The notes under the pieces were generated by a model. It was not told the DNA's origin, made no database searches, and saw nothing but the letters and a program-made list of their open reading frames with translations. A program made the position numbers and the translations under genes. A DNA stretch of 64,000 nt from Corynebacterium sp. p3-SID1056 (GTDB lineage: Bacteria; Actinomycetota; Actinomycetes; Mycobacteriales; Mycobacteriaceae), in NCBI RefSeq assembly GCF_025152525.1, contig NZ_JALXXL010000004.1:148130-212129 (forward strand), given 5' to 3'. This document shows positions 2,027 through 58,903 of this stretch, piece by piece. Each line of letters opens with the position of its first letter. Within the stretch, counting starts at the first letter, position 1.

Positions 2027-3076
2027 GTGATTCGTATAGCCGTTATTTACGGTGGCCAGTCCACCGAGCACTCAATTTCCTGCATCTCGGCAGGCGCCGT
2101 CATGGCGCACCTTTCGCCCGAGCGTTACGAGGTCTACCCCGTCGGCATTACGCGCGAGGGAGCCTGGGTAGAGGGCAGCCACGACCCGGTGGCGGGTGCC
2201 ACGCTGCCCGAGGTTGCGGGCGAGCGCGAGGTGGCGCTCTCGCTCAACCCGGATCGCCGCGGGCAGCTTATCGACGTCGCGACAGGCGAGGTTCGCGCCA
2301 CCGTCGATGTGGCCTTCCCCGTCCTGCACGGCAAGTTCGGAGAAGACGGCACAATCCAGGGCCTGCTGGAGCTGGCTGGGTTGCCCTACGTCGGCCCAGG
2401 CGTATTGGCCTCGGCCTGCGGGATGGATAAGGAATACACCAAGACACTCGTGCGCGCCGCTGGCGTCGCGGTTGCGGGCGAGGTGGTGCTGGGCAGAGGC
2501 GAGTCGCTGGATGAAGCGCAGCGCGCGGAGCTTGGCCTTCCGGTGTTTGTGAAACCCGCCTCGGGCGGTTCCTCGATCGGCGTGTCCAAGGTGGAAAGCT
2601 GGGAGGCGCTCGACGAGGCGCTTGCACTCGCCTTTGATTCGGACGAGAAAGTGCTGGTGGAATCCGAGCTGGTCGGCGACGAAGTCGAGGTCGGCGTCAT
2701 CGAGCACCCGGACGGGCGGATCGAGGCGAGTGTGCCAGCCCGCCTCAACGGCACCGAGGACTCGGCCGAAGGCTTCTACGGGTTCGAGACAAAGTACTTG
2801 GAAGATGGGGTGACGGCGACGATCCCCGCGCCCTACGACGACGCGGTGATCGAGCAGCTTCAGCAGCTTGCGTTGCGGTGTTTCCGGGCGCTGAACTGCA
2901 AGTCGCTCGCGCGCATCGACTTCTTCGTCACCGCAGAGGGCCCGGTGCTCAACGAGATCAACACGATGCCCGGCTTCACCCCGATTTCCATGTACCCCCA
3001 GGTGTGGCAAGCCAGCGGGCTTGACTACCCGGAGATGCTGGACCTGCTCGTCACCACCGCGCTGGCCCGCGCCTAA
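2027..3076 (+). CDS. ddl: D-alanine--D-alanine ligase
   Basis: This 349-residue ATP-grasp enzyme joins two D-alanines for peptidoglycan precursors. The N-terminus IAVIYGGQSTEHSIS is typical, the ATP-grasp loop KPASGGSSIGVSKVE lies near residues 175-189, and the C-terminal metal/substrate segment reads ARIDFF...LNEINTMPGFT. The start is GTG at 2027. A -10-like TAGTCT ends 6 nt upstream and no ribosome-binding site is visible, so the transcript may be leaderless. It lies directly after gpsA and is convergent with the DUF3515 gene, overlapping its stop by 4 nt. Confidence 0.96.
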   Translation: MIRIAVIYGGQSTEHSISCISAGAVMAHLSPERYEVYPVGITREGAWVEGSHDPVAGATLPEVAGEREVALSLNPDRRGQLIDVATGEVRATVDVAFPVLHGKFGEDGTIQGLLELAGLPYVGPGVLASACGMDKEYTKTLVRAAGVAVAGEVVLGRGESLDEAQRAELGLPVFVKPASGGSSIGVSKVESWEALDEALALAFDSDEKVLVESELVGDEVEVGVIEHPDGRIEASVPARLNGTEDSAEGFYGFETKYLEDGVTATIPAPYDDAVIEQLQQLALRCFRALNCKSLARIDFFVTAEGPVLNEINTMPGFTPISMYPQVWQASGLDYPEMLDLLVTTALARA

Positions 3077-4020
3077 CGCTCGGGCAGCGTGTCCGCGATC
3101 AACTTCGACAGGTTGGTCACGGCCTCGTTGCCCTCGGACTGTGGCAGCGACGCGGCTACATCGGTGACCCGCCCGAGCGCGTACCAGGTCGACGTGGTCG
3201 TGCCGTTGGCGAGCGTGGTGTCCTCGAACCAGGGGATGTCATTGACCTGCGAAAGTTGCGCGCCCGCAGCGTAGTGCTCCGGTTCCGCTACGCCGCACCG
3301 CACGACGATCGGTTCCTTGCCCTCGGCAATCCAGGCCACCGTGTGTTCGGTTGCTGGCTCCACCCGGCGGTAGCCGGTGGCGATGTCCTGCGGCGCGGCG
3401 TCGATAAGCGAGCTGCATGCCGCGGCATCTTCCGGATTGGCCGCGCGCTGGAGCTGCGTCAGGGGTGCTTCGCCCACCGGCTGCTCGCCGGCCGGCAGCG
3501 CAGCCAAGTCCAGGCCCTCGAGGGGAGTGTCGGCCTTGCCCAGGGAAGCCTCGTCCGCGGTCACGGCGACGGCCGGCTCGCGATCCACGCTGAACCAGGT
3601 AGCAAGCGTGGACCCCGGGGTCGCATCGTCGACGCGCAGCCAACGCGCGCCCGCGGCCTCGAAGACGAGGGGCTCGGAGTACGCCGTGTACTGCGCGGGC
3701 ATGTGCACCCCGCAGCGTAGGGTGATGCGTTCGGTGGAGGAGGACTGCCAGGCGGCCGCGCCCGCGGGTGCCGGATCCGCGAGCTCGGCGCGCCGGTGGC
3801 CGTTGAGTTTTTCCGGCAGGGAAGCGACGAGCGCGGCGCACTCGGGCGAGTCCGCTGCGGGCGAGTCGAGCTGCGACATCGCGACCGGCTGCTGCGCTGC
3901 CTGCTTCACGAAGTAGCGCGCGCCACCGAGGACTACCGCGACGAACGCCAGCGCGAGCCCAAGGCTCACAATTACTGTGGTTCGGTTAATCTGTGAATCG
4001 TTCGCCGCGGAATCAGTCAT
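3073..4020 (-). CDS. DUF3515 family membrane-anchored protein
   Basis: This 315-residue protein has one N-terminal membrane helix (about residues 15-37, TTVIVSLGLALAFVAVVLG) and an extracytoplasmic region with paired cysteines (ECAALVASLPEKLNG, LRCGV, ACSSLIDAAP, VRCGV). The repeated C-A-x-L...C-G-V pattern identifies the DUF3515 family, which is conserved next to thiL and ddl in Actinobacteria and has no assigned function that I know of. Here the domain appears twice (residues about 55-170 and 215-310), so the protein looks duplicated. The ATG at 4018-4020 sits head to head with the thiL start region. It carries one of the CGTCGATAAGC repeats at 3399. Confidence 0.85.
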   Translation of the reverse strand: MTDSAANDSQINRTTVIVSLGLALAFVAVVLGGARYFVKQAAQQPVAMSQLDSPAADSPECAALVASLPEKLNGHRRAELADPAPAGAAAWQSSSTERITLRCGVHMPAQYTAYSEPLVFEAAGARWLRVDDATPGSTLATWFSVDREPAVAVTADEASLGKADTPLEGLDLAALPAGEQPVGEAPLTQLQRAANPEDAAACSSLIDAAPQDIATGYRRVEPATEHTVAWIAEGKEPIVVRCGVAEPEHYAAGAQLSQVNDIPWFEDTTLANGTTTSTWYALGRVTDVAASLPQSEGNEAVTNLSKLIADTLPER

Positions 4021-4054
4021 GGCGTCACAGTCTATCGAAAGGTGCGTGCCCCTC

Positions 4055-57456: not shown

Positions 57457-57469
57457 GAGCCGGATAGGT

Positions 57470-58903
57470 ATGGAGCAGCACAAGACGAACGAAGGCGCGC
57501 TGTGGGGCGGCCGTTTCTCGGGTGGACCCTCGGAAGCGATGTTCGCCCTGAGCGTGTCCACCCACTTCGACTGGGTGCTCGCACCTTATGACGTGCTGGC
57601 CTCGAAGGCCCACGCCAAGGTGCTGCACAAGGCGGGCCTGCTTTCCGACGCCGACTTGGACACCATGCTTGCCGGCCTGGATCAGCTGGGCAAAGACGTC
57701 GCCGACGGCACTTTCGCTCCGGCGCCGACGGACGAGGACGTCCACGGCGCGATGGAGCGCGGTCTCATTGAGCGCGTCGGCCCCGAGGTTGGCGGCCGCC
57801 TGCGCGCGGGCCGCTCCCGCAACGACCAGGTCGCCGCGATGTTCCGCATGTGGTGCCGTGATGCGCTGCGTGGTGTGGCTGTCGAAGTCAGCAGCCTCAT
57901 CGACGCCCTTGTGGAGCAGGCCGCGGCACACCCGGACGCCATCATGCCGGGCAAGACGCACTTCCAGGCGGCGCAGCCGATCTTGCTCGCGCACTCCCTG
58001 CTCGCGCACGCGCAGCCGTTGCTGCGCGACCTTGAGCGCATCCAAGATGCGGACAAACGCCTCGCGGTTTCGCCCTACGGCTCCGGCGCATTGGCCGGGT
58101 CTTCGCTCCACCTGGACCCGGAGGCGATTGCCACCGAGCTGGGCTTTGCTTCCGCGACCGACAATTCCCTCGACGGGACCGCGTCGCGCGATTTCGCGGC
58201 GGAGACCGCCTACGTACTGGCGCAGATCGCCGTGGATATCTCCCGCCTGTCCGAGGAGCTCATCGCGTGGTCGACGCCGGAGTTTGGCTACATCACGCTT
58301 GACGACGCGTGGTCGACCGGTTCGTCGATCATGCCGCAGAAGAAGAACCCGGACGTACCGGAGCTCGCCCGCGGCAAGACCGGGCGCCTGTTGGGCAACC
58401 TCACCGGTCTGCTGGCCACGCTCAAGGCGATGCCGCTGGCGTACAACCGCGACCTCCAGGAAGATAAGGAGCCGGTGATCGACTCTGTCAACCAGCTCCG
58501 TATCCTCCTGCCAGCGATGACAGGTTTGGTCTCCACGCTGGTGTTCCACGAGGACCGGATGCGCGAGCTCGCCCCGGCCGGGTTCACCCTGGCGACGGAC
58601 TTGGCTGAGTGGATGGTGCGCCAGGGCGTGCCCTTCCGCGAAGCCCACGAGGCCTCCGGTGCCTGTGTCCGTATCGCCGAGCAGCGCGGCGTGGATCTGG
58701 TGGATTTGACGGACGAGGAACTCGCGGGCGTCGATAAGCGGCTGAAGCCCGAGGTGCGCGAGGTGCTCACCATCGATGGGGCAGTGGCCTCCCGAGACAC
58801 GCGTGGCGGCACCGCCAAGGTGCGAGTAGTAGAGCAGCGCGAGCGTGTGGCGGAAGCCAACGCAGCCTTCCGCGCATGGGCTGAGAAGCCCGTGCGTGGC
58901 TAG
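57470..58903 (+). CDS. argH: Argininosuccinate lyase
   Basis: This 477-residue fumarase-superfamily lyase performs the last arginine step. WGGRFSGGPSE lies near the N-terminus, then AGRSRNDQVAA, MPGKTHFQAAQPI, and the signature loop GSSIMPQKKNPD near residue 284 with the catalytic serine. It lies 13 nt after argG. It carries an 11-mer repeat at 58729. Confidence 0.97.
   Translation: MEQHKTNEGALWGGRFSGGPSEAMFALSVSTHFDWVLAPYDVLASKAHAKVLHKAGLLSDADLDTMLAGLDQLGKDVADGTFAPAPTDEDVHGAMERGLIERVGPEVGGRLRAGRSRNDQVAAMFRMWCRDALRGVAVEVSSLIDALVEQAAAHPDAIMPGKTHFQAAQPILLAHSLLAHAQPLLRDLERIQDADKRLAVSPYGSGALAGSSLHLDPEAIATELGFASATDNSLDGTASRDFAAETAYVLAQIAVDISRLSEELIAWSTPEFGYITLDDAWSTGSSIMPQKKNPDVPELARGKTGRLLGNLTGLLATLKAMPLAYNRDLQEDKEPVIDSVNQLRILLPAMTGLVSTLVFHEDRMRELAPAGFTLATDLAEWMVRQGVPFREAHEASGACVRIAEQRGVDLVDLTDEELAGVDKRLKPEVREVLTIDGAVASRDTRGGTAKVRVVEQRERVAEANAAFRAWAEKPVRG

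Follow-up and report, generated by a model that had tools for sequence, protein, structure and literature searches.

The 64-kb window analysed here, by which we mean the whole stretch of DNA under study, was placed in the genus Corynebacterium because of its PheT protein and carries 14 exact copies of the 11-bp word CGTCGATAAGC, seven on each strand. The word belongs to a split motif, CGTCG-NN-AAGC (CGTCGNNAAGC), which constitutes a conserved and strand-symmetric signal of Corynebacterium chromosomes at the level of the DNA. From its enrichment, equal representation on both strands, contrast between self and foreign DNA, dialect switches, conservation, spacing and preference for the antisense orientation, taken in combination, we infer that the motif is probably a genus-specific DNA-uptake sequence with dialects, of which CGTCGATAAGC is the commonest form.

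Within the window, CGTCGATAAGC is the most over-represented 11-mer: none of 100 dinucleotide shuffles reached 14 copies (mean, 0.00), and the order-3 Markov expectation is 0.07. An earlier note on this DNA had counted 13 copies (seven plus, six minus) between positions 2266 and 58739; the over-representation and the end coordinates hold, and the count is corrected to 14. The split motif occurs at 47 sites (Table 1), and its commonest form, with AT in the middle, is the exact word (14 of 47). The copies had also been described as lying inside genes, where they read as LID, VDK and SIS. These readings recur (QLIDV, IVDKQ, PSISR and others), and the placement applies to most sites, 40 of the 47 falling in called genes, six between them and one on an edge. 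As the simple gene caller used here assigns 85% of the window sequence to genes, some of the seven non-genic sites may lie in uncalled genes. One of the carrier genes named earlier, pheT, was confirmed (positions 47698-50205), and its product shares 92% identity with that of C. sp. HMSC074A01, to which it is sister on a PheT tree.

A fixed 11-mer was rejected as a description of the signal, given that the two middle bases are free; between loci L013 and L055, identity was 0.42 at these bases and 0.89 in the core. CGTCGATAAGC ranked first among the 11-mers of 11 of the 76 fetched loci, and CGTCGAAAAGC, CGTCGACAAGC or CGTCGGAAAGC in others. In an evenly sampled 400 kb of C. glaucum, we detected 259 CGTCGNNAAGC sites, in which all nine fixed positions were sharp, single-base variants occurring 2-37 times each. 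The middle prefers A or T followed by T or C, G is favoured at position -2 (175 of 259 sites), and the base after the motif is usually A or G, giving the consensus G-N-CGTCG-(A/T)(T/C)-AAGC-(A/G). Many intergenic sites of this species (L077-L096) continue into an A-rich stretch with an AGCTCC-like end at a variable distance; such an extension was not found in C. senegalense.

Five related genomes of 2.3-2.6 Mb each contain 1235-1710 CGTCGNNAAGC sites, with similar numbers on the two strands, against 65-103 for the backwards pattern, which corresponds to an enrichment of 15-19 times over this control. Whole-genome counts were obtained for 5 + 50 of the 76 loci; L066 and L068-L075, which are not from Corynebacterium, were excluded from them, and L076 was retained as a control. 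The 50 further genomes (49 Corynebacterium and one Solimonas) included both enriched and unenriched species. Among 181 Corynebacterium genomes drawn, 123 had at least 250 sites and 58 had fewer than 140, with none in between. The forward-strand fraction in the 123 tagged genomes ranged from 0.463 to 0.529, and the densely tagged genomes sampled carried about one site per 1.4-1.6 kb. No comparable genome was found among 120 others drawn from the order or among 148 drawn at phylum level (four belong to both draws), the densest of which reached about 0.07 sites per kb, compared to 0.11-0.76 in the 123 tagged genomes. One 2.1-Mb genome of the phylum draw (G661) had 103 CGTCGNNAAGC sites against 24 for the backwards control, a weak enrichment that is perhaps compositional in origin. 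Two excluded Thiomicrospira loci showed an over-represented 11-mer of their own, CACCAGGCCTG, with seven copies in 16.3 kb (L071) and five in 5.8 kb (L073), possibly another family of scattered words.

The selection on the DNA itself that the earlier note had proposed was substantiated by the codon-shuffled control it suggested. Under synonymous-codon shuffling, 40 sites were observed in the window genes against 3.9 ± 1.9 expected, and 211 in the C. glaucum genes against 16.9 ± 4.0, an enrichment of 10-12 times. All six reading frames were enriched in C. glaucum (observed over expected from codon usage, 4.8-70), and the density between called genes (41 sites in 60.0 kb) was similar to that within genes (211 in about 340 kb). 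Two thirds of the genic sites (140 of 211) lie in the frame reading L-x-D, the frame where proteins offer most room, and occupy 140 of 325 compatible L-x-D places. The remark that the word uses codons otherwise avoided holds in part: in the relative C. glaucum, CTT still makes up 12% of the Leu codons (1209 of 10116), but 109 of 193 in the word context L[IVFNSTYH]D[VADEG]. Furthermore, the genic sites of this species were antisense in 152 cases and sense in 59; in published uptake-sequence genomes, one orientation, the reverse complement, is likewise commoner in reading frames (PMC2346458).

The absence of strand bias noted earlier in the window (now 7 and 7) extended to replication in the C. 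glaucum sample, in which 131 sites were leading and 128 lagging by the sign of the GC (guanine-cytosine) skew, and 123 and 136 fell by chromosome half, several stretches having weak skew; replication polarity was thus rejected for this sample. Nor was there regional concentration in C. glaucum, the counts per 20 kb having a variance-to-mean ratio of 1.12. The sites are, moreover, conserved. Counting only sites with 41 aligned bases, 13 of 14 sites aligned between the window and its sister species were kept, compared to 0.376 of random windows, with an identity of 0.992 in the core and 0.901 in the flanks. For ten species pairs, each compared both ways, conservation extended to 150 of 207 aligned sites against 0.18-0.44 of random windows, the lowest value being 5 of 17 (L010 versus L057).

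Spacing was analysed in two 400-kb samples, from C. glaucum and C. senegalense, with 0.62-0.65 sites per kb. Same-strand sites avoided each other within about 1 kb, and opposite-strand sites were placed independently. The fraction of same-strand gaps shorter than 500 bp was 0.045 against 0.144 simulated in C. senegalense and 0.082 against 0.171 in C. glaucum, an avoidance matched by 0 of 235 and 0 of 143 control 7-mers of similar frequency. Over the whole C. senegalense sample, gaps were more uneven than random (coefficient of variation, CV, 1.223), mainly because of islands; once the largest gap was set aside, the same-strand CV was 0.743 compared to 0.983 simulated. To obtain a positive control, we screened 274 genomes from the class to which Solimonas belongs for the Pasteurellaceae word AAGTGCGGT; one was enriched, G566, with 1270 copies (638 + 632), taken for Pasteurellaceae on account of these copies alone. 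Under the same treatment, 585 kb of G566 had a density of 0.64 per kb and a fraction of 0.048 same-strand gaps below 500 bp against 0.150 simulated.

The motif is scarce in the mobile DNA sampled, which comprised six plasmid stretches and one 400-kb stretch. The six plasmid stretches (198 kb) held eight sites, and five of them (148 kb) only one. On the C. striatum resistance plasmid pTP10 (L171; 50 kb), all seven sites lie within positions 5777-13129 (7.4 kb), leaving none in the other 42.6 kb; this tagged block contains tetAB, a dihydroorotate dehydrogenase gene and mshC, which are chromosome-type genes, and looks as if it were derived from a chromosome. The chromosomes of relatives carry roughly 0.33-0.39 sites per kb: we counted 817 over the 2.5 Mb of C. 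curieae and 1179 over the 3.0 Mb of C. aurimucosum. In the 400 kb of C. senegalense, where 10 gap proteins were scanned, the longest motif-free gap (23.5 kb) has genes for metal P-type ATPases along with those for a multicopper oxidase and a repressor that senses metals; the second (12.6 kb) is low in GC and carries transposase genes, the third (9.3 kb) encodes a P-type ATPase together with a regulator of the ArsR type, and the fourth (7.3 kb) has a GC fraction of 0.571.

Members of the genus that lack the CGTCG form include users of a sister word. Whole-genome counts of the CATCG form CATCGNNAAGC were 964, 490, 983, 981, 625 and 974 in G016, G019, G020, G022, G025 and G026, a set made up of C. 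macginleyi, MSK130, ACRPS, KPL1814, the metagenome-assembled genome Dk and C. phoceense, and 12-154 in the other 18 of the 24 genomes tested; in the six rich genomes, the CGTCG form stood only at about its control level. Altogether, CATCG is used by 10 of the 58 Corynebacterium genomes that lack CGTCG (7 of 49 and 3 of 9). Word counts in samples indicated CATCGnCAAGC in MSK130, ACRPS, KPL1814 and, weakly, C. macginleyi, GGCATCGGCA in C. phoceense and C. phocae (the latter from a sample of only 123 kb) and GGGCGTCAA in C. jeikeium (from only 103 kb); no sister word was found by such counts in C. pygosceleis. GGCGTCGRAA occurred 272 and 328 times in the whole genomes of C. dentalis and C. suicordis and 11-140 times in the other 22. 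On a tree built from one protein, PheT, for 54 of 66 Corynebacterium loci and the window, the C. macginleyi group falls, with strong support, within the set of CGTCG users, and C. phoceense and C. phocae lie outside this set; if this single-gene tree holds, the word has therefore switched at least two times. Besides GGCATCGGCA, C. phocae (L035, L108, L163-L166) carries CCGTCGCCGTC-type repeats, 11 in 122.5 kb, perhaps a repetitive gene. In C. jeikeium and relatives (L046-L048), ATGGCCTCCGG was counted four times in each of three stretches of 22.6 kb, which are orthologous.

Candidate machinery for uptake was surveyed in 50 genomes. All 50 encode a member of the ComEC family, split over two frames in G054 (C. 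urinipleomorphum) and partial in G025 (C. phoceense), and 49 have a T2SSE/Tad ATPase above the cut-off, split in G017 (C. minutissimum 1941); no Tad ATPase match exceeded the cut-off in the draft G012 (C. lipophiloflavum). The split, partial and missing matches are possible draft errors. In 20 Tad loci, relatives of CpaE, TadA, TadB, TadC, TadE and TadF were present throughout and a Flp pilin in 19, with a single frame matching both TadB and TadC in three species. PDDEXK_1 nucleases exceeded the family cut-off in all 50 genomes, and many of those listed have two neighbouring PDDEXK_1 frames of about 1000-1150 amino acids (for example G005, at 588 and 592 kb), a paired layout as expected of AdnAB. 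The presence or absence of ComEC, the Tad ATPase or AdnAB-like nucleases was rejected as the discriminating trait between genomes, because each family occurs in 49 or 50 of the 50, the sets differing by one genome. The Tad and ComEC machinery is compatible with uptake but no proof of it.

If the motif serves in uptake, a DNA receptor at the cell surface, which may be a minor pilin or partner of the Tad pilus, would bind double-stranded fragments that bear the word; the bound fragment would be drawn across the mycomembrane and the wall, and the DNA would enter as a single strand via ComEC. Recombination of tagged fragments would then keep and spread the tag, uptake bias acting as a molecular drive in addition to selection, and dialects could arise when the preference of the receptor shifts. 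We further lean, with somewhat less assurance than for the uptake function itself, towards the view that this is a third independent case of self-DNA recognition by an uptake sequence and the first in a Gram-positive host, with a Tad-linked receptor at the mycomembrane and with much of the genus specifically transformable.

Several observations weigh against an uptake function or narrow the evidence for it. The genome-wide figures come from relatives of the window strain, and in the weakest of the 123 tagged genomes the enrichment over the backwards control is only about 4-fold. Among the 58 genomes that lack CGTCG, CATCGNNAAGC is missing as well from 48, two of them being intermediate (213 and 159 counts); the search for further dialects covered six of these 48. 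The chromosomes set against the plasmids belong to relatives and not to the plasmids' own strains, and plasmids and islands differ from the chromosome in GC. C. pygosceleis, in which no word was found, has both ComEC and the Tad ATPase, so that machinery and word do not go together. In seven Tad proteins, compared for six species of the CATCG type and eight of the CGTCG type out of the 20, the two sets are told apart by just three individual columns, none of them convincing. In the window alone (47 sites), the same-strand fraction of 0.111 falls within the simulated range (0.168; 0.089-0.267), and sites on opposite strands likewise keep their distance, unlike those in the larger samples. Alternating orientation is weak evidence, as 9 of the 235 and 3 of the 143 control 7-mers equal it. 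The sites show no bias to gene ends (quintiles: sense 20, 24, 20, 32, 24; antisense 56, 71, 67, 59, 49), a bias reported for the uptake signals of Pasteurellaceae. Finally, close inverted pairs are not in excess in the two Corynebacterium samples (0.041 and 0.015 against 0.031 shifted), in contrast to G566 (0.148 against 0.031) and to Neisseriaceae genomes with dialects, where high numbers of them are reported (PMC3630211). We regard such pairs as a usual rather than a defining trait of uptake sequences. One rare pair in C. glaucum, CGTCGTAAAGC...GCTTATCGACG at L079:13510-13535, lies near a gene end and resembles the terminator-type inverted pairs described for Neisseria.

Other functions would account for parts of this evidence, and the foremost is a Chi-like site, at which a helicase-nuclease of the AdnAB kind that resects a broken end and meets the word in one orientation would switch to making a recombinogenic end. 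The nucleases are there in every genome surveyed, in many of them in the paired layout, the avoidance among same-strand sites with independence between strands suits an orientation-specific reader, and Chi, too, would be scarce in foreign DNA. We nevertheless consider this function unlikely. E. coli Chi has a leading-strand bias and the motif has none (131 versus 128 by skew sign, 123 versus 136 by half); mycobacterial AdnAB is not known to respond to Chi; the Chi sites known to us are shorter than nine fixed bases with flanks; the word differs between sister clades; and the uptake signal of G566 has the same spacing pattern. That the word is bound along the chromosome by a genus-specific nucleoid or segregation protein is improbable: sites that are spread along the chromosome, strand-symmetric and scarce on plasmids and islands would fit, but avoidance confined to the same strand is unexpected of a simple binder, C. 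glaucum has no regional concentration, and we know of no chromosome-organising site of such density and length.

A self-mark, that is, a protected or methylated word by which a defence or modification system spares self DNA, would agree with the contrast between self and foreign DNA and with the change of dialects. Restriction targets are, however, usually avoided rather than enriched tenfold, and the usual type I systems are not known to recognise a split target of nine bases with a 2-base gap, so that we give this explanation very little credence. An origin as a by-product of protein sequence or of Leu-Ile-Asp codon-pair preference, for which the predominance of the L-x-D frame speaks, has next to no chance of being correct: codon usage was rejected as the explanation because shuffling leaves only 17 sites in C. 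glaucum, all six frames are enriched and the density between genes is as high. Among the options listed in the earlier note, an uptake-like tag is favoured by the spacing, the dialects and the scarcity in mobile DNA.

Table 1 Sites of the split motif in the 64-kb window (window coordinates).
Form	Position	Strand	Gene context	Reading
CGTCGGCAAGC	92..102	+	antisense in gene	
CGTCGAGAAGC	1862..1872	+	sense	
CGTCGATAAGC (exact word)	2266..2276	-	antisense	QLIDV
CGTCGATAAGC (exact word)	3399..3409	+	outside called genes	
CGTCGAGAAGC	4597..4607	-	antisense	
CGTCGATAAGC (exact word)	6139..6149	+	sense	PSISR
CGTCGACAAGC	6278..6288	-	antisense	
CGTCGAGAAGC	7675..7685	-	antisense	
CGTCGACAAGC	9818..9828	-	outside called genes	
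CGTCGAAAAGC	11432..11442	+	antisense	
CGTCGGAAAGC	14308..14318	-	sense	
CGTCGTCAAGC	16948..16958	+	antisense	
CGTCGACAAGC	17092..17102	+	antisense	
CGTCGACAAGC	17961..17971	-	antisense	
CGTCGATAAGC (exact word)	18582..18592	+	sense	IVDKQ
CGTCGAGAAGC	18885..18895	-	antisense	
CGTCGACAAGC	19107..19117	-	antisense	
CGTCGAGAAGC	20774..20784	+	antisense	
CGTCGCCAAGC	21251..21261	+	antisense	
CGTCGCTAAGC	23130..23140	-	outside called genes	
CGTCGCAAAGC	23606..23616	+	sense	
CGTCGGTAAGC	25242..25252	+	antisense	
CGTCGAGAAGC	25785..25795	+	antisense	
CGTCGGTAAGC	27448..27458	+	antisense	
CGTCGGCAAGC	27803..27813	+	at gene edge	
CGTCGATAAGC (exact word)	29820..29830	-	sense	IVDKQ
CGTCGTAAAGC	30207..30217	+	antisense	
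CGTCGATAAGC (exact word)	31360..31370	+	outside called genes	
CGTCGATAAGC (exact word)	33151..33161	+	antisense	SLIDA
CGTCGATAAGC (exact word)	35466..35476	-	antisense	SLIDE
CGTCGTAAAGC	37471..37481	+	antisense	
CGTCGATAAGC (exact word)	39103..39113	-	sense	SVDKL
CGTCGATAAGC (exact word)	40650..40660	+	outside called genes	
CGTCGGCAAGC	41533..41543	-	antisense	
CGTCGACAAGC	43315..43325	-	antisense	
CGTCGAGAAGC	45212..45222	-	outside called genes	
CGTCGAAAAGC	46838..46848	+	sense	
CGTCGATAAGC (exact word)	48363..48373	-	antisense in pheT	SLIDV
CGTCGAAAAGC	50034..50044	-	antisense in pheT	
CGTCGATAAGC (exact word)	54172..54182	-	antisense	LLIDE
CGTCGGCAAGC	54591..54601	+	sense	
CGTCGATAAGC (exact word)	57147..57157	-	antisense	RLIDA
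CGTCGGAAAGC	57640..57650	-	antisense	
CGTCGTCAAGC	58297..58307	-	antisense	
CGTCGATAAGC (exact word)	58729..58739	+	sense	GVDKR
CGTCGGAAAGC	61476..61486	-	antisense	
CGTCGTCAAGC	62278..62288	-	antisense	

To our knowledge, uptake sequences are known only in Neisseriaceae and Pasteurellaceae, and the known hosts are bacteria with an outer membrane. If the uptake function is real, its occurrence in a mycomembrane host would suggest that such tags evolve where DNA crosses an outer layer, and uptake tags in most of an Actinomycetota genus would represent convergent evolution. It would also give Corynebacterium, which includes skin and mucosal commensals and industrial strains, a natural means of exchanging genes that can be tested, and tag-free islands would mark genes that may be recent imports. 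As sister clades use different dialects, the genus would offer a clean setting for the co-evolution of receptor and tag. Among the matches listed in our literature search, none reported the word, uptake sequences or natural competence in Corynebacterium. In the part accessible to us, a genome screen for spaced motifs has no entries other than CRISPR pairs for C. aurimucosum, C. jeikeium and C. urealyticum (PMC5217627), although we count 1179 sites in C. aurimucosum. The tag makes natural competence in Corynebacterium directly testable and, if borne out by experiment, would be a new case of a self tag, in a group for which our search turned up no earlier description of one.

Compared with known systems, the motif shares its many chromosomal copies with the FtsK-orienting polar sequences (KOPS) and other polarised words; words of the KOPS type are strongly skewed to one strand, and the Corynebacterium word lacks such skew. 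With the Chi sites of RecBCD and AddAB it has in common that a short oriented word is scattered through self DNA and that AdnAB-like nucleases are present, but it shows no replication-strand bias, is longer and changes quickly. The Neisseriaceae DNA uptake sequence (DUS; ATGCCGTCTGAA) resembles it in its strong over-representation and in forming species dialects along the host tree, for which it is the closest precedent (PMC3630211), and also in that its reverse complement is commoner in genes (PMC2346458); it differs in its unrelated sequence and in its ComP receptor, of which no counterpart was identified in Corynebacterium, and inverted pairs are not in excess in Corynebacterium. The Pasteurellaceae uptake signal sequence (USS; AAGTGCGGT), as seen in G566, is alike in density, equal strands and same-strand avoidance and is a different word, whereas that of Corynebacterium is split, has no excess of inverted pairs and belongs to an actinomycete host with a Tad pilus locus.

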